From Bacteroidia bacterium (GTDB taxonomy: Bacteria; Bacteroidota; Bacteroidia; J057), in assembly GCA_033391075.1 (NCBI GenBank), contig JAWPMV010000001.1, forward strand, positions 2,976,001 through 3,040,000: 64,000 nucleotides of DNA, given 5' to 3'. The translations under genes were made by a program, and so were the position numbers. The notes beneath the pieces are model-generated. The model was not told the origin of the DNA and made no database searches. It saw nothing but the letters and a program-made list of their open reading frames with translations. The number at the start of each line of letters is the position of its first letter. Within the stretch, counting starts at the first letter, position 1. This document shows, in pieces, positions 26,957-33,039 of this stretch.

Positions 26957-27399
26957 TATTCTTTATTAGTATTTAGGAGATCTTTAGCAGCAGCAACCGC
27001 ATCGGCTACTTCTTTACCCATGCTCTGCATTTTCTCCATTTCTTCTTTCAGATAAGCCATCGCTTCTTCTTCCGTTTTGTCCAAAGGCGCCTTAAAATCT
27101 GCCATCCATACATTCATAGCTTCATCCGCTGATTCTAATTGGCTGATGGTTTCCGCATATGTTTTGAGCTTTAGGCTATCTACCTCCTCCGGCATTTCAA
27201 GACGCATATTTTCCATCGAAGCCAACTCATCTTTGATGGTCTTTTTAAGTCCGTAAATTTCCCCCCATACTACCATATCCTGATGATGAATTTCCATCAT
27301 CTCCTGAAAATATAGTTCAGATTCTTTGGTGGTATTACAGCTAATCAGGAGGGCTAGCAGAAAGAAAGTTGGTAAGGAAAGCTGAGCGTAAAACTTCAT
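26956..27399 (-). CDS. Helical lipoprotein of unknown function
   Basis: The 147-residue product has a type II signal (FFLLALLISC, Cys21) followed by an almost entirely helical, charged body (YFQEMMEIHHQDMVVWGEIYGLKKTIKDEL and similar) with coiled-coil character and several Met and His residues. It is the first gene of the lipoprotein-SCO-cytochrome operon. The His/Met content near HHQDM could bind copper, but this is speculation. Similar small helical lipoproteins are frequent in Bacteroidota and remain uncharacterised. Confidence 0.75.
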   Translation of the reverse strand: MKFYAQLSLPTFFLLALLISCNTTKESELYFQEMMEIHHQDMVVWGEIYGLKKTIKDELASMENMRLEMPEEVDSLKLKTYAETISQLESADEAMNVWMADFKAPLDKTEEEAMAYLKEEMEKMQSMGKEVADAVAAAKDLLNTNKE

Positions 27400-27421
27400 A
27401 TTCTTTTGTTGAAATATGAGG

Positions 27422-27429
27422 CAAATTTA
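27422..27429 (-). promoter_or_regulatory. Candidate -7 promoter box for the SCO operon
   Basis: The minus strand reads TAAATTTG, an exact TAnnTTTG match, 23 bases upstream of the lipoprotein start codon. No TTG is seen at the usual upstream distance, so the call rests on the -7 box only. Confidence 0.4.
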
Positions 27430-27756
27430 CACAACTCCTCCCTGAGAAAATAATTTTGAGGGCTAAAGAAAGTTTGAATTTTCTCCTGATCCTGGACAAA
27501 TCAAGCTTTTGAAATCACTCTGTTTCAGTGGTAGGTCTACTACAGTTATATAGTATTTCGCCTAATGCTTAGTAGCTCTATATCTACTAGTATCTAGGAA
27601 AATAGAAAACAATCACTACTTAATAGCAATAATACATTTGCAATAAAAGCTGTCTTTTTTATGATTTTTTAAAATAAATAAAGATTTTTTCAAGAATCTA
27701 TAATGCTGAAAATTAAGCACTTGCATTCATTTGAAAAAAAATCTTCAAACCTATGC
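27430..27756. other. AT-rich divergent intergenic region upstream of the sulfur operon
   Basis: This stretch holds no credible ORF. It contains a second exact -7 box for the plus strand (TACATTTG, 27633-27640) without a clear -33 TTG. It also has a small inverted repeat (TAGTAG...CTACTA near 27564-27584) and long A/T runs around 27655-27700. These may be upstream promoter or regulator sites for the sulfur operon; none is certain. Confidence 0.35.
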
Positions 27757-27788
27757 TTGGAATTCTCCGTAAATCAGCACTACCTTTG
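27757..27788 (+). promoter_or_regulatory. Bacteroidota-type promoter of the sulfur assimilation operon
   Basis: TTG at 27757-27759 and TACCTTTG at 27781-27788 (exact TAnnTTTG) are 21 bases apart, within the range described for the primary sigma factor of this phylum. The predicted transcription start is about 27793-27795, just before the S-box aptamer. This is the best-formed promoter in the window. Confidence 0.7.
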
Positions 27789-27792
27789 AAGC

Positions 27793-27815
27793 ATCAATTA
27801 CGGATTGTAATTGAT
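27793..27815 (+). repeat. Perfect 9-bp palindrome overlapping the riboswitch P1 strand
   Basis: ATCAATTAC (27793-27801) and GTAATTGAT (27807-27815) are perfect reverse complements around GGATT. The second arm shares seven bases with the 5' strand of the riboswitch P1 helix (27809-27820). In RNA it could form a hairpin at the very 5' end that competes with P1. In DNA it could be a dimeric regulator's operator at the transcription start. Confidence 0.6.
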
Positions 27816-27914
27816 TTATACAGAAGAGGCGAGAGAACAGGCTCGATGACCCTCTGGCAACCTTCCTTAGGAGACGGTGCCAATTCCTGCCCGAAAGGGA
27901 CATATGAATTAATT
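27809..27914 (+). promoter_or_regulatory. SAM-I (S-box) riboswitch
   Basis: The stretch has the S-box core: AGAGGCGAGAG, then CTCGATGACCCTCTGGCAACC, then GGTGCCAATTCC and GCCCGAAAGGGA. P1 forms between AATTGATTTATA (27809-27820) and TATGAATTAATT (27903-27914) with 12 pairs, two of them G-U. S-box RNAs bind S-adenosylmethionine and turn down sulfur and methionine genes. No classic terminator or anti-terminator follows. The 3' strand of P1 ends 8 bases before the leader-peptide ATG, so the likely output is translation of that leader, or coupling to Rho; this is inference. Confidence 0.9.
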
Positions 27915-27922
27915 ATAGAAAA

Positions 27923-28039
27923 ATGAAAAACCTATCTCCATCCGTATCCCTCTCCGAGTCTTCACGACTTCCTTATTTACCCACACATTTTGCTATTGAC
28001 TTCAAGCTAAACAACTGTTGTTGTTGCTGTTGTTGCTAA
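27923..28039 (+). CDS. Poly-cysteine leader peptide of the sulfur operon
   Basis: An ATG at 27923 opens a 38-codon frame, too short for usual gene calling, that ends LNN followed by seven consecutive Cys codons (28016-28036) and TAA. The first 31 residues are Ser/Pro-rich and contain no Cys. Seven Cys in a row immediately before the stop, upstream of genes for sulfide and homocysteine synthesis, is what a ribosome-stalling cysteine sensor would look like. A ribosome short of Cys-tRNA would pause there. Analogous poly-Cys upstream frames control sulfur genes by attenuation in mycobacteria. Expression has not been shown here; the call rests on sequence and position. Confidence 0.8.
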   Translation: MKNLSPSVSLSESSRLPYLPTHFAIDFKLNNCCCCCCC

Positions 28040-28120
28040 ACCTAATCTGCATGTATTAGGTCATCCTGTAAACAAGGGCTTTTTGTCCCTTAGGCTGATC
28101 ATAACATATGCGCATTAGGT
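28040..28120 (+). promoter_or_regulatory. Competing stem-loops after the leader peptide (candidate attenuator)
   Basis: ACCTAAT at 28040-28046, directly after the leader stop codon, can pair perfectly with ATTAGGT at 28055-28061 or with a second copy at 28114-28120. Between them a hairpin can form at 28061-28098 (TCA-CCT-AAGGG with CCCTT-AGG-TGA, with internal loops). A ribosome stalled on the Cys codons would cover 28040-28046 and free the ATTAGGT copies. No U-tract terminator is obvious, so control could act on Rho access or on cysH translation. Confidence 0.55.
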
Positions 28121-28180
28121 TGCTTGTGCTTTCATTGATTTTAAACATTGATACAGTCATTCTTTGCAAAAAATTTTCTC

Positions 28181-28930
28181 ATGAATTCCACTATTATCGA
28201 ACAACTCAACGCTGAAACAGAAGGTCTCTCCGCCTCGGAAAGCCTCAGATGGATTGCCCAGGTCTATGGCAATGAGGCCAGCTTCTCTCTGGGCTTTGGA
28301 TTAGAAGGGATGGTGATCGCCGATCTGATCTTCAGCCAGGACCTGGATATTCGGGTGTTTACGCTGGATACGGGAAGGCTCTTTGTGGAAACTTATGAGT
28401 TGTTCAATAAAGTTTATGCGCGATATCAAAAGAAAATTGAAGTTTTCTTCCCGGAAAGGGATGATGTCGAGAAATTGGTCAGCAGTAAAGGACCCTTCAG
28501 TTTTTATGAATCGGTAGAAAATCGCAAAGAATGTTGTGGAATCAGAAAACTCAGGCCCCTGGAAAGAGCCTTGAAAGGAAGCAAAATCTGGATAACCGGA
28601 CTGCGATCCAGCCAATCTGAATTCAGAAGCGGACTCTCCCGGTTCTACTGGGATGAAAAACGACAGTTGATCAAATTCAATCCTTTGTTTGAATGGAGCC
28701 GTGAAGAAGTATGGGCCTATATCCGCAAAAACAGAGTTCCCTATAATGCATTACATGATCGCGGCTACCAAAGTGTTGGCTGTGCTCCCTGTACTCGTGC
28801 CACAGAAGCAGGAGAAGATGAAAGAGCTGGAAGATGGTGGTGGGAAGACTCTCACAAAGAATGTGGACTTCATGAAATCGATGTCCCATCTCCCAAAGAA
28901 AAGCAGAAAACTCTTTGCCATAAATGTTAA
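28181..28930 (+). CDS. cysH: Assimilatory adenylylsulfate (APS/PAPS) reductase
   Basis: The enzyme reduces activated sulfate to sulfite using thioredoxin or glutathione. From MNSTIIEQLN the product is 249 residues. It has the PP-loop-like SLGFGLEGMVIADL, the 4Fe-4S ligands Cys118-Cys119 (ECCGIRK) and Cys201/Cys204 (GCAPC), and the catalytic Cys228 in ECGLH. The Cys-Cys plus CxxC set marks the iron-sulfur, APS-using type. A TTG at 28148 in the same frame was rejected because the ATG at 28181 matches the family start. First structural gene after the riboswitch and poly-Cys leader. No ATP sulfurylase genes are in the window. Confidence 0.93.
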   Translation: MNSTIIEQLNAETEGLSASESLRWIAQVYGNEASFSLGFGLEGMVIADLIFSQDLDIRVFTLDTGRLFVETYELFNKVYARYQKKIEVFFPERDDVEKLVSSKGPFSFYESVENRKECCGIRKLRPLERALKGSKIWITGLRSSQSEFRSGLSRFYWDEKRQLIKFNPLFEWSREEVWAYIRKNRVPYNALHDRGYQSVGCAPCTRATEAGEDERAGRWWWEDSHKECGLHEIDVPSPKEKQKTLCHKC

Positions 28931-28960: not shown

Positions 28961-30151
28961 ATGTCTGAGCATAAATTTGAAACCAAATCCATAAGAACCC
29001 AAATCGACCGATCTTGTCATGGGGAACATTCAGCTCCCTTATACTTAACCTCCAGTTTTGTGTTCAAAGACGCAGAACAAATGCGTGCAAGATTTGCCAA
29101 TGAAGAAGAAGGGAATATTTATAGTCGTTTCTCAAACCCCAATACTTCTGAGCTGATCGATAAAATTTGTACCCTGGAAGGTGCTGAAGATGGTTTTGCC
29201 ACAGCTACAGGTATGTCTGCTGTTTTCACCAGTCTGGCAGGCTTGCTGGATTCTGGAGATCATATTCTTGCCAGCCGGTCCCTTTTTGGTTCGACGCATT
29301 CGGTTTTAGGAAAATTGCTGCCCAGATGGGGAATCAGCCATACCTATGCACCTGTTTTCGATACAGATTCCTGGGATGAACTGGTTCTTCCCAATACCAA
29401 AATTCTATTTGTAGAAACTCCTTCAAATCCAGCGGTTGATCTCCTTGATTTGGAATGGCTGGGGAAATTTGCTCACAGACATGGATTGATTTTGATTGTA
29501 GACAATTGTTTTGCGACCCCTTATCTCCAACAACCGCTGAAATATGGAGCTGACTTGGTGCTACATTCCGCTACCAAATACATAGATGGTCAGGGTCGGG
29601 TACTTGGTGGAATTATCGCCGGTAAAGGCGACCTACTGGAGCAGATTCGTCTTTTTGCCAGACACAGTGGACCTGCTTTGTCCCCTTTCAATGCCTGGGT
29701 ACTATCCAAGAGTTTGGAAACCCTGGCTATCCGAATGGATCGTCATTGCTCCAATGCATTGAAATTGGCTACTTACCTGGAAGAACATCCGGAAATAGAA
29801 TATGTAAAATATCCCTTTCTCCCTTCTCACCCGCAATATGAAATCGCACGCAAGCAAATGAAAGCAGGCGGCGGTATTGTGAGCTGTGTGGTAAAAGGGG
29901 GAGTTGAAAGAGGAAGAAAATTTCTCGACTCACTTCAGTTGGCATCTCTGACTGCAAATCTCGGGGATAGCCGAACCATTGCAACACACCCCGCTTCTAC
30001 AACTCATGCGAAAGTCAGCGAAGAAGATCGCCTGGCTGTCGGTATCGTGCCCGGTTTGATACGAATATCTGTCGGATTAGAGCACATCGATGATATCACC
30101 GCAGATATCAATCAGGCCCTGGAGCGATCCAGGCTTTTACAAAGAGCTTAA
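28961..30151 (+). CDS. metZ: O-succinylhomoserine sulfhydrylase (PLP trans-sulfuration family)
   Basis: The enzyme joins sulfide to an activated homoserine to give homocysteine. The 396-residue product has the Cys/Met-metabolism PLP fold: YSRFSNPNTSELIDKICTLEG, ATATGMSAVFTSL, FVETPSNPAVDLLDLEWL, and the PLP Lys206 in LHSATKYIDGQGRVLGG. The GQGRVLGG variant after the Lys is typical of MetZ rather than MetB or MetY. Use of O-acetyl instead of O-succinyl homoserine cannot be excluded. It follows cysH by 30 bases and precedes sulfite reductase by 19, so sulfide made by the operon is used at once. Confidence 0.88.
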   Translation: MSEHKFETKSIRTQIDRSCHGEHSAPLYLTSSFVFKDAEQMRARFANEEEGNIYSRFSNPNTSELIDKICTLEGAEDGFATATGMSAVFTSLAGLLDSGDHILASRSLFGSTHSVLGKLLPRWGISHTYAPVFDTDSWDELVLPNTKILFVETPSNPAVDLLDLEWLGKFAHRHGLILIVDNCFATPYLQQPLKYGADLVLHSATKYIDGQGRVLGGIIAGKGDLLEQIRLFARHSGPALSPFNAWVLSKSLETLAIRMDRHCSNALKLATYLEEHPEIEYVKYPFLPSHPQYEIARKQMKAGGGIVSCVVKGGVERGRKFLDSLQLASLTANLGDSRTIATHPASTTHAKVSEEDRLAVGIVPGLIRISVGLEHIDDITADINQALERSRLLQRA

Positions 30152-30170: not shown

Positions 30171-32258
30171 ATGCAGAGTTTCAGAACGGAAATCGAAAAC
30201 CCAGTTGTAGAAAAAGACATCATTGAGCTGGAAAGAAAGATCCGCCAATTTCAGGAAGGAAAGGTAGATGAAGAAAGATTCAGAAGTCTTCGGTTGGCAA
30301 GAGGAGTTTATGGCCAGCGTCAGCCTGGCGTTCAAATGATTCGAATCAAAATACCATATGGTAGATTGACAGCTCAGAAACTTCGTAGAATCGCTGAGGT
30401 GGCAGATACTTACTCAACAGGCAAACTTCATATCACCACTCGGCAGGACATCCAGATTCACTATGTAAAACTGGAAGACAGTCCACAGCTCTGGGCAGAA
30501 CTGGAAAAGGATGAGGTAACCCTGAGAGAGGCTTGTGGAAATACCGTAAGAAATGTTACTGCTTCTGAATTGGCAGGCATAGATCCTGAGGAGCCCTTTG
30601 ATGTAAGTCCTCATGCAGATGCTTTCTTCAAATACTTCCTAAGAAATCCTATTTGTCAGGAAATGGGTAGAAAATTCAAAGTATCCTTTTCTTCTTCTGA
30701 TCAGGATGTAGCATTTTCTTTTATGCATGATCTGGGCTTTATCCCAAAAATAAAGGATGGACAAAGAGGCTTCAAAGTGATGATCGGCGGAGGACTAGGA
30801 GCCCAACCCATACATGCAAAAGTTGCCAGTGAATTTCTCCCGGAGGATCAGATCATTCCTTTTGCGGAATCTATTCTCAGAATCTTTGATCGCTATGGAG
30901 AACGCGCGAAACGATTCAAAGCCCGTTTCAAATTTCTACTCAATAAAATAGGCTTGGAAGAACTTTTTCGCTTGGTAGAAGAAGAGAAAGCTGCGCTAGC
31001 CTACCAGCGATATCCTATAGCTGCCGAAGACTTCCCTTTGCCGGTACTTCCGGTTTACAAAAAAAGAGAAGCAGTAAACATAGAAGATAGAGAGGCTTAT
31101 GAGGCCTGGTTTAAAAGCAATGTATTTGAGCAAAAGCAAGCTGGATTTTACGGAGTCAAAGTCAAAGTTCATTTGGGCGACTTTAGTACAGATACAGCCA
31201 GAGAATTAGCTCAAATCATCGAAGAGCTTGCAGGAGATGATTTCCGACTGAGTATCAATCAGGGAATTGTCCTGCGCTTTGTACGGGAAGAAGACCTTCC
31301 TCTTCTTTACAGCCGACTGGAGACATTGAATTTTGTTGAGCCAGGATATGATAGTTCTGCAGATATAACTGCCTGTCCGGGAACGGATACCTGTAATCTG
31401 GGCATTTCAAGTAGTACAGGAGTCAGTAAGGTGTTAGAGTCTTTGATCCTTGAGAAATACCATTCACTGATTTACAATACTGACCTCAAAATCAAAATCA
31501 GTGGTTGTATGAATGCTTGTGGTCAGCACAGCATTGCAGCTATAGGTTTTCATGGGAGTACCCTAAAGGTCAAAGACAAAGTTGCTCCAGCTATGCAGGT
31601 TTTATTGGGCGGAGGAATTATTGGAAATGGAGATGCTGCTTTCGCCCAAAAGGTCATCAAACTCCCTTCGAAAAGAATCCCTACAGCCCTATCCTATGTC
31701 ATCGAAGACTATGAGGACCATAAAGAAGCTGATGAAAAATTTTATCAGTATTTCCAACGCCAGGGTAAGAAATATTTCTATCAATTGCTCAAACCTCTTG
31801 CACAAACACAAAGTCTGACACAGGAAGATTTTCTGGACTGGGGACATGAGGAAAGTTTTGTAGCAGAAATAGGAGTAGGAGAATGTGCAGGTGTTGTAAT
31901 CGATCTTGTAGCCACTTTGTTTTTTGAAAGTGAGGAGAAACTGGATCGGGCAAAAGAAAATCTTCTGGAAGGTCAATATGCAAATGCCATTTACTATGCT
32001 TATGCAGCGGGAGTAAATGCTGCAAAAGCTACTTTGGTACAGCATGAAATCCCTACTAATACGCTGGCAAAAATCATCGATGATTTTGATGAGCAAATTC
32101 TCGCCAGTGGGAAAATCAATTTCAAACAAAGTTTCCGCAGTTTTATTTATCAGGCGAAAAAAGTGGAGCCCACTCAGGAGTTCGCCGCCAATTTTGTCCT
32201 GGAAGTACAGGATTTCCTCCACCTAGTCCAGGAATTTAGCCTAGCAAAACATGAATAA
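30171..32258 (+). CDS. Siroheme sulfite (or nitrite) reductase with C-terminal HEPN-like domain
   Basis: The 695-residue product carries two ferredoxin-like half domains and two siroheme/4Fe-4S domains. Siroheme motifs are GKLHITTRQDIQIH (about 85-98) and the Cys ligands CPGTDTC (402, 408) and CMNAC (446, 450). This is the hemoprotein family of NirA/CysI/Sir. Its place in a sulfur operon points to sulfite reduction to sulfide. Residues about 585-690 form an extra all-helical domain (LDRAKENLLEGQYANAIYYAYAAGVNAAKATLV) resembling a HEPN domain, without an obvious RxxxxH RNase motif. It overlaps the SUMT gene by 8 bases. Confidence 0.88.
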   Translation: MQSFRTEIENPVVEKDIIELERKIRQFQEGKVDEERFRSLRLARGVYGQRQPGVQMIRIKIPYGRLTAQKLRRIAEVADTYSTGKLHITTRQDIQIHYVKLEDSPQLWAELEKDEVTLREACGNTVRNVTASELAGIDPEEPFDVSPHADAFFKYFLRNPICQEMGRKFKVSFSSSDQDVAFSFMHDLGFIPKIKDGQRGFKVMIGGGLGAQPIHAKVASEFLPEDQIIPFAESILRIFDRYGERAKRFKARFKFLLNKIGLEELFRLVEEEKAALAYQRYPIAAEDFPLPVLPVYKKREAVNIEDREAYEAWFKSNVFEQKQAGFYGVKVKVHLGDFSTDTARELAQIIEELAGDDFRLSINQGIVLRFVREEDLPLLYSRLETLNFVEPGYDSSADITACPGTDTCNLGISSSTGVSKVLESLILEKYHSLIYNTDLKIKISGCMNACGQHSIAAIGFHGSTLKVKDKVAPAMQVLLGGGIIGNGDAAFAQKVIKLPSKRIPTALSYVIEDYEDHKEADEKFYQYFQRQGKKYFYQLLKPLAQTQSLTQEDFLDWGHEESFVAEIGVGECAGVVIDLVATLFFESEEKLDRAKENLLEGQYANAIYYAYAAGVNAAKATLVQHEIPTNTLAKIIDDFDEQILASGKINFKQSFRSFIYQAKKVEPTQEFAANFVLEVQDFLHLVQEFSLAKHE

Positions 32259-33039
32259 GCAAAAGATACATCCAAAAGTAAGCCTGGTTGGCGCAGGTCC
32301 CGGTGATCCAGAATTGATCAGCCTCAAAGGATTAAAAGCCATACAGCAAGCAGACGTAATACTCTATGATGCCCTGGTACATCCCGACCACTTATTAGCA
32401 GCAAAAAAAGAAGCCAAACTCATATTTGTTGGCAAAAGGGCAGGATCGCATCGCTATTCGCAAAGCGCAATAAATCAGATGCTTGTAGAATGTGCCCTGC
32501 ATGAGGGTCATGTGGTCAGGCTCAAAGGAGGAGATCCCTTTGTTTTTGGCAGAGGCCATGAAGAATTGGAATATGTCAAGTCTTTTGAAATTGAAACGGA
32601 ACTGATTCCTGGAATTTCATCCGTCAACTCGGTACCTGCTTTGCAGGAAATTCCTCTAACCAAAAGAGGTATAAATGAAAGTTTTTGGGTCATCACTGCT
32701 ACGACTTCAAAAGGAGAAGTTTCTAAAGACCTTTATCAAGCAGTAAGAACCGATGCGACTATCGTTGTATTGATGGGCTTGAGAAAGCTTCGGGAAATTC
32801 AACAGATATTCACCTATGCAGGTAAAGGGCATCTACCTATTGCTGTCATTCAATCTGGTTCATTGCCAGAAGAAAAGATAGCGCTGGGGAGTATTGAAGA
32901 TATTGATGAAGCCGTAAGAAGAGAGCAAATCTCAGGTCCTGCTATCATGGTCATAGGAGAAGTCGTGGCTTTGCATCCCAGCCTTCCTCAACAATTGGTT
33001 ACTGAATATGGCAAAACCGAATGGCGAGTCTGGGCCTGA
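32251..33039 (+). CDS. cobA: Uroporphyrinogen-III C-methyltransferase (SUMT)
   Basis: The enzyme uses SAM to make precorrin-2, the first step from uroporphyrinogen III to siroheme, the cofactor of the sulfite reductase encoded just before it. The 262-residue product shows VSLVGAGPGDPELISLKG, ILYDALVHP, VRLKGGDPFVFGRGHEE, ELIPGISSVNSVPA, IPLTKRG and IVVLMGLRKL. It is the stand-alone form, without the CysG dehydrogenase/ferrochelatase half, which must be elsewhere. SAM use here ties in with the SAM riboswitch upstream. Last gene of the operon; a terminator follows. Confidence 0.94.
   Translation: MNKQKIHPKVSLVGAGPGDPELISLKGLKAIQQADVILYDALVHPDHLLAAKKEAKLIFVGKRAGSHRYSQSAINQMLVECALHEGHVVRLKGGDPFVFGRGHEELEYVKSFEIETELIPGISSVNSVPALQEIPLTKRGINESFWVITATTSKGEVSKDLYQAVRTDATIVVLMGLRKLREIQQIFTYAGKGHLPIAVIQSGSLPEEKIALGSIEDIDEAVRREQISGPAIMVIGEVVALHPSLPQQLVTEYGKTEWRVWA

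Follow-up and report, generated by a model that had tools for sequence, protein, structure and literature searches.

Cysteine leader peptides and riboswitches coupled to uORFs

In mycobacteria, leaderless upstream ORFs (uORFs) rich in consecutive Cys codons have been described (Canestrari 2020, per PMC9094748), and Cys leader peptides were predicted in Actinobacteria, where no conserved terminator was found and the participation of Rho was suggested (PMC1262725). In the accessible portions of these accounts, the features shared with the leader described here are a short ORF, a Cys run near its stop and a position upstream of sulfur genes. However, no riboswitch is described in those portions, whereas the uORF studied here sits directly behind a SAM-I aptamer; it also differs from the mycobacterial poly-Cys uORF in not being leaderless, judging by the predicted start site, and in having relatives that mix Met with Cys codons.

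The Mbox of M. tuberculosis is a riboswitch that acts through a uORF with Rho-dependent termination, and its authors suggested, as a possibility, that a pyrimidine-rich stretch serves as a rut site which uORF1 translation would mask (PMC12810186, available in part). An aptamer, a uORF starting at the aptamer end and Rho-dependent premature termination are found in the Mbox and, the last of them as a proposal, in the present leader. The Mbox uORF1 contains TGC, TGC, TGT and TGT, which were taken as rare codons, the word "cysteine" being absent from the text available. The Mbox differs in its Mg2+ aptamer, its poorly conserved uORF1, a regulated uORF2 that is itself a conserved peptide, and its confinement to one genus. 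In the B12 riboswitches of M. tuberculosis (metE, ppe2), riboswitch and uORF translation also act together, but the uORF lies inside the aptamer or overlaps the gene start, and the part of the report at hand describes no tRNA-charging codon block (PMC11260477).

A second input related to tRNA, with no intrinsic terminator, was described for a Xanthomonas SAM-I riboswitch; there, however, uncharged initiator tRNA binds the RNA itself, and a leader peptide is unmentioned in the accessible text (PMC7270179). Joint control of a sulfur operon by Cys and SAM is known from the Clostridium ubiG operon, in which it is exerted by a Cys T-box, plus an S-box antisense RNA in C. acetobutylicum, with no translated Cys leader in the text at our disposal (PMC2940859). 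The cysS leader uORFC-8-2 of Rhodobacterales is a uORF with Cys codons for which attenuation was proposed, but it has two Cys codons, a U run as of an intrinsic terminator and, so far as the consulted part of that paper goes, no riboswitch, and it regulates cysS (PMC8632094). In a flavobacterium, leader-peptide attenuation upstream of amino-acid operons has been mentioned (PMC9723704, seen in part).

The full-text literature searched, outside which lie supplements and most subscription journals, yielded no description of a SAM riboswitch coupled to a Cys leader peptide. Since this literature, as far as it could be covered, holds the parts but not a SAM riboswitch with a Cys leader, the combination of SAM-I aptamer and Cys leader is taken here as a new variant whose individual parts have precedents.

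A SAM-I aptamer and a Cys-ending uORF upstream of cysH

The window, i.e., the whole stretch analysed, comprises 64,000 nucleotides of a Bacteroidia genome. An earlier note, made from the sequence alone, had described in it a 38-codon frame with a block of seven Cys codons before its stop, followed by genes for APS reductase, O-succinylhomoserine sulfhydrylase, sulfite reductase and SUMT. The frame and its Cys block proved exact, their coordinates being reproduced, and the downstream genes were identified as stated by family HMMs, which were run on six proteins of the window and sixteen others. The elements of the locus are the following:

27757..27788, + strand: promoter-like TTG (27757-27759) and TAccTTTG (27781-27788) of Bacteroidota housekeeping type, predicted start near 27793
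27805..27918, + strand: outward extension of P1, about 27805-27812 with 27911-27918, reaching 8 nt beyond the model end with one mismatch permitted
27813..27910, + strand: SAM-I (S-box) riboswitch aptamer, full length (Rfam RF00162, 76.5 bits, gathering cut-off 44.4, E 5.4e-18, model 1-108)
27923..28039, + strand: leader peptide uORF of 38 codons, read from the sequence, ATG 12 nt past the aptamer end
27926..28015, + strand: uORF body, C-rich and G-poor, rut-like (about 32% C and 9% G, composition of 27923-28015)
28016..28036, + strand: seven consecutive Cys codons abutting TAA, read from the sequence
28040..28061, + strand: post-stop hairpin ACCTAAT/ATTAGGT, from the sequence, local hairpin energy not significant (p 0.13)
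28074..28091, + strand: second small hairpin AAGGG/CCCTT, from the sequence, partly paired in the predicted fold
28181..28930, + strand: cysH, thioredoxin-dependent APS/PAPS reductase, first gene of the operon (TIGR02055 and NF002537 over cut-off)
28961..30151, + strand: metZ, O-succinylhomoserine sulfhydrylase (NF006003 over cut-off)
30171..32258, + strand: siroheme sulfite/nitrite reductase, NirA-like (best PRK09567, E 2.7e-67, below cut-off)
32251..33039, + strand: uroporphyrinogen-III C-methyltransferase (SUMT), siroheme supply (TIGR01469 over cut-off)

The uORF runs from the ATG at 27923 to the TAA at 28037-28039 and encodes the leader peptide MKNLSPSVSLSESSRLPYLPTHFAIDFKLNNCCCCCCC, all seven Cys of which fall in one block (5 TGT and 2 TGC) followed by the stop. 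As in amino-acid attenuators, the regulatory codons of this short ORF are clustered toward its end (7 Cys in 38 codons), an arrangement that recurs in relatives. Upstream, the TTG element, which we take to be part of the Bacteroidota housekeeping promoter, precedes the TAccTTTG box; the aptamer separates the predicted start from the ATG, which follows some 130 nt later, and on this prediction the uORF is not leaderless. The box follows the sigma-A consensus TAnnTTTG, placed at -12 to -5 in the available part of PMC9723704. In 26 of the 46 leaders described below as proximal, TAnnTTTG is found in the 60 nt that precede the aptamer, against 1.6 expected from a mononucleotide shuffle.

The aptamer had been overlooked by the earlier note. 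Its assignment to RF00162 rests on the score and on coverage of the whole model, and sulfur and methionine genes lie downstream; the usual intrinsic-terminator platform was not found. Membership of the SAM-I class requires no particular expression platform, and the element is shaped to sense SAM, whose binding is predicted. The terminator scan returned no intrinsic terminator on the + strand at 27300-28400, no T-box was found in 27300-28300, and SAM was the sole Rfam match at E up to 1. The P1 extension stops 4 nt short of the uORF ATG, and the helix is also present in the minimum-energy folds. Past the uORF stop, ATTAGGT occurs twice in the window (28055-28061 and 28114-28120), each copy being complementary to ACCTAAT at 28040-28046; two alternative helices are possible for ACCTAAT, of which the predicted fold adopts the long-range form with 28114-28120.

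The only other SAM-I site found by Rfam in this genome, at C1:914548, is followed by the uORF MTHQSVFVQDSTSIVSIKFCCCC, ending in four Cys codons, and then by metY, encoding O-acetylhomoserine sulfhydrylase. The Cys block next to the SAM-I aptamer in this genome is not a product of chance, because the 9.49 Mb genome, both strands included, has only four positions at which four TGY codons run into TAA or TGA, and two of these directly follow its only two Rfam-found SAM-I aptamers (the remaining two are 3321723, antisense to a poly-Gln ORF, and 4231889). Five other genomic places with five TGY codons were treated as noise; one run (L005) is antisense to a poly-Gln ORF, one stretch (L001) codes for AVVAA within a 655-aa ORF on the same strand, and the other three are at 4621933, 6273809 and 6680277.

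Recurrence of the leader in Bacteroidota

The class sample consisted of 119 evenly drawn genomes, 85 of them with a match, in which all 114 SAM-I sites over the Rfam cut-off were read and two sites under it were dropped. A site was considered positive if a frame carried at least 4 Cys in its last 15 codons, and for the set of 55 positives used further below a run of 3 was also accepted; both criteria were fixed after the first loci had been viewed. Gene labels were assigned by sequence motifs written for this analysis, a site being called metH if a metH ORF lay downstream, even behind another gene. Eight of nine labels checked by HMM agreed, the metX label of L092 matching no family at E 1e-60 and being unconfirmed. 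Surveys above 40 genomes used stricter Infernal filters, by which weak sites were lost.

In this sample, frames with at least 4 Cys were found at 11/14 metY sites (12/14 if a run of 3 Cys is also counted), at both cysH sites and at 3/7 unclassified sites, the dinucleotide-shuffle expectation being 0.04 positives for metY and 0.06 for metH. No such frame was present at the 74 metH, 10 CGS/CBL and 3 metX sites, nor at the single sites of metE, metF and metZ and at one further site; at L145, which belongs to a different genome from the window, metZ follows a SAM-I aptamer and has no Cys uORF. An order-level survey of 22 genomes yielded 14 SAM-I sites, nine with a Cys uORF and five without (two CGS/CBL, an OsmC-like gene, metX and one metY). 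From a phylum search the 30 best loci were read, of which one was also a class row and 29 were kept, two of these (L041 and L052) being of the window's class. The only positive among the 29 was L041, so that no Cys uORF was found at the 27 loci outside the window's class among the best of this search.

A MetY search of named genomes, which may overlap those of the other samples, was read for the best 80 of 593 matches. Among these best 80 matches a SAM-I aptamer lay upstream in 56, and 31 of the 56 SAM-metY leaders passed (shuffle expectation 0.22), with records of Mucilaginibacter, Pedobacter, Hymenobacter, Pontibacter, Thermonema, Lewinella and Haliscomenobacter among them. The other 25 stayed below the 4-Cys threshold, as did 3/14 metY sites in the class sample. 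Many blocks in relatives mix Met with Cys (e.g., CICMCCCC), so that both sulfur amino acids would be read. Under the threshold, the uORF behind the SAM aptamer of L233 (Sphingobacterium sp. GVS05A) ends in SMRMRMHMHLPTC, with alternating Met codons, as if Met and not Cys were read.

Several loci of unusual content were also observed. Of the three unclassified positives, two (L087, L146) lie ahead of TonB-receptor genes and one (L128) ahead of an operon that includes a luciferase-like monooxygenase, perhaps genes of sulfur-source uptake under the same control. SAM-I aptamers stood upstream of a GH18 glycosidase (L158), an AhpC/TSA-type thioredoxin protein (L082) and a class-V aminotransferase (L118), which would be unusual targets, provided that control falls on the first ORF. 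Four metY loci with no over-cut-off SAM aptamer (L206, L221, L215, L224) carry Met/Cys-rich short frames upstream, e.g., MNIKQHQNSVKMHAMFHSMCMCCMYMCM. In a MAG titled Acidimicrobiia bacterium (L231), a MetY that shares 67% identity with the Bacteroidota query is accompanied by a SAM-I aptamer and by a short frame containing Cys, and its presence in a record titled as another phylum may reflect transfer or mis-binning.

Placement of the uORF relative to the aptamer

By either criterion, 55/209 leaders were positive, and these fall into two layouts. In the proximal layout (46/55) the uORF ATG lies 0-22 positions past the aptamer, with a median of 10, and in the distal layout (9/55) it lies 63-384 from it; in control leaders (metH/CGS) the first ATG is at 3-22 in 14/86. 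No proximal leader had a scored intrinsic terminator (0/46, with 0.7 expected from shuffles), whereas one was scored in 39/74 metH leaders, the other 35 having none, and in 12/12 CGS/CBL leaders (together 51/86). On these counts of predicted terminators, the comparison shows the proximal uORF in the place where many Bacteroidia SAM-I riboswitches keep their terminator. In the distal layout, a strong intrinsic terminator lies ahead of the uORF, at +35 to +48, in 7/9 leaders. One leader (L018) has, to the eye, a hairpin and then a T run after the uORF, which went unscored in the scan.

In the 46 proximal leaders, P1 reaches further toward the uORF than expected (mean extension 3.17 nt vs 1.69 with a shuffled flank), reaching at least 6 nt in nine of them vs 1.75 expected, and no lengthening was found in the metH/CGS leaders (1.63 vs 2.09 shuffled). 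In translationally acting SAM-I riboswitches the ribosome site is on the 3′ side of P1 (PMC2258182, available in part), and in the window it is this side that adjoins the uORF start. The fixed spacing and the extended P1 fit a uORF start predicted to be under control of the aptamer.

Proposed action of the leader

Since a SAM-I riboswitch directly adjoins the uORF, the leader probably takes two inputs and does not serve cysteine feedback alone, and since the pairing of aptamer and Cys uORF recurs across many Bacteroidota, one leader probably reads both sulfur products. The cysteine-sensing leader of the earlier note is in this way strongly supported by comparison, but its restriction to cysteine probably does not hold, given the adjoining aptamer. 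That the element is a dual SAM/Cys leader we consider highly probable. A two-input RNA leader acting on the cysH-metZ-sir-SUMT operon through SAM gating, ribosome stalling and Rho is the favoured reading as a whole, with appreciable reserve, and SAM gating of the uORF start, taken separately, is a somewhat probable component. The architecture of the leader, its position, its gene association, the missing scored terminators and the C-over-G bias are well supported by the comparison of sequences.

In the proposed mechanism, the SAM-bound aptamer would stabilise the extended P1, and ribosomes would be kept out of the uORF. Under low SAM the uORF would be translated, and scarce Cys-tRNA would cause ribosomes to stall at the Cys block. 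The third step is the least certain, in which a uORF left untranslated or quickly finished would leave its C-rich, G-poor RNA open to Rho, which would halt transcription ahead of cysH, whereas a stalled ribosome, together with any queue behind it, would cover the RNA and let the polymerase pass. The net outcome would be an operon that is on when SAM and charged Cys-tRNA are both low.

Termination by Rho or control of translation

The earlier note had envisaged that stalling would change either downstream RNA folding or Rho access. A classical terminator/antiterminator switch was not seen, and Rho access stands as the better guess, still unproven. Because no terminator was scored and a rho gene is present in the genome, Rho-dependent termination appears the likeliest output, at about even confidence. 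The uORF bodies have C over G in 45/46 proximal leaders (mean skew 0.298), as does the RNA behind the uORFs (0.254, 45/46), the control leaders being at about -0.03. This bias is not specific to the uORF, since metY leaders that lack both a terminator and a scored Cys block share it (mean skew 0.194, 22/23 positive); the terminator-less metY leaders of other classes reach 0.310 (18/18). It may mark SAM-metY leaders as such, the uORF having been added in Bacteroidia.

The main rival to an output by Rho is a translational one, in which the downstream gene would have its start masked by the Cys codons or the post-stop hairpins until a stalled ribosome released it; such an attenuator seems doubtful here. 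In its favour are three loci of one genus (L250, L251 and L252, from 13 other cysH loci read), where stand-alone poly-Cys uORFs precede cysH with no SAM aptamer nearby, e.g., MNQITHRHSSIAPNGLMCCCCCCC, and where the Cys block is paired, in each of the three predicted folds, to the sequence immediately ahead of the cysH ATG, besides pairing with the uORF start region. In SAM-type leaders, post-stop hairpins are modestly favoured (mean z -1.07, 11/46 at p<0.05), and a few pairs co-vary. In Pedobacter-type leaders one hairpin spans the Cys/Met codons and another follows downstream, with compensatory changes in 5/13 pairs (8 sequences), and Mucilaginibacter-type leaders show them in 2/19 pairs (5 sequences); these small sets and the alternative ACCTAAT helices of the window are, as structural hints at the leader, suggestive only. 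Pairing of the Cys block with the main start region was not detected in SAM-type leaders (0/55 at p<0.05, mean z +0.27), and these leaders also bear the C-over-G bias. No common signal emerged either for pairing of the Cys block with the next 60 nt (2/46 at p<0.05) or of the 5′ flank with the uORF (4/46).

A further explanation is that the SAM aptamer and the Cys leader are two independent controls that merely adjoin, the uORF being ungated by SAM. The nine distal leaders, whose Cys uORF lies well downstream and in seven cases after a terminator, and the stand-alone uORFs at 3/13 other cysH loci are compatible with it. We consider it unlikely, since in the 46 proximal leaders the uORF starts at most 22 positions from the aptamer end, the usual terminator was not found and P1 is lengthened toward the ATG; with the uORF so close and the usual terminator missing, the aptamer would be left without another visible target.

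Selection on the Cys codons

Runs of TGY codons were surveyed in 78 metY/cysH SAM leaders, drawn from all groups but the phylum search, with 92 other SAM leaders as control. Runs of at least 3 in any frame occurred in 46/78 of the former and in none of the 92 others. Of 48 such runs, 42 were in frame with, and open from, an ATG 0-25 nt past the aptamer, and the remaining six sit in distal uORFs. The earlier note had named a missing conserved Cys block or start codon in homologous leaders as a refutation; this was looked for, and both were instead found to recur. In 65 proximal ORFs picked blind to Cys, the last 12 codons contain 33% Cys vs 1.4% in the body (23.6-fold) and 10% Met vs 1.9% (5.3-fold).

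It could be supposed that the frame encodes a small Cys-rich protein working in trans, e.g., in metal or thiol binding. A Cys cluster could bind metal, and the frames are intact in many genomes, but only the start position and the Cys/Met end are conserved, the middle and the length (23-64 codons) being free, and the frame is tied to metY/cysH SAM aptamers and absent at metH, which makes a trans-acting product very improbable. A trinucleotide-repeat artefact read as Cys codons by chance is hardly credible at all, for although the block repeats TGY and the antisense strand of a poly-Gln ORF at another genomic position yields a comparable run, the blocks combine TGT with TGC (162 and 87), interruptions by Met, Trp, Ile or Pro codons keep the frame, and the 42/48 runs in frame with a proximal ATG contradict it.

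Implications for sulfur assimilation in Bacteroidia

The dual SAM/Cys leader of the window may represent a composite regulator class of Bacteroidia, a reading that we hold as evenly balanced, in which the platform of the SAM-I aptamer would be the start codon of a Cys or Cys/Met leader, forming an AND gate with Rho as output. In such a gate the riboswitch would decide on ribosome entry, and the ribosome would then gauge tRNA charging. The distal form, with aptamer, terminator and Cys leader in succession, would be the same AND gate in series.

If this is true, a leader-peptide sensor would stand where the terminator of a riboswitch would be, and small ORFs are predicted behind many metY and cysH SAM riboswitches. 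Riboswitch action on translation starts in Bacteroidia and the reading of uORFs by Rho would thereby become testable. Bacteroidia would possess a direct, protein-free control of sulfate and sulfide assimilation by the supply of SAM and cysteine, and also of methionine.
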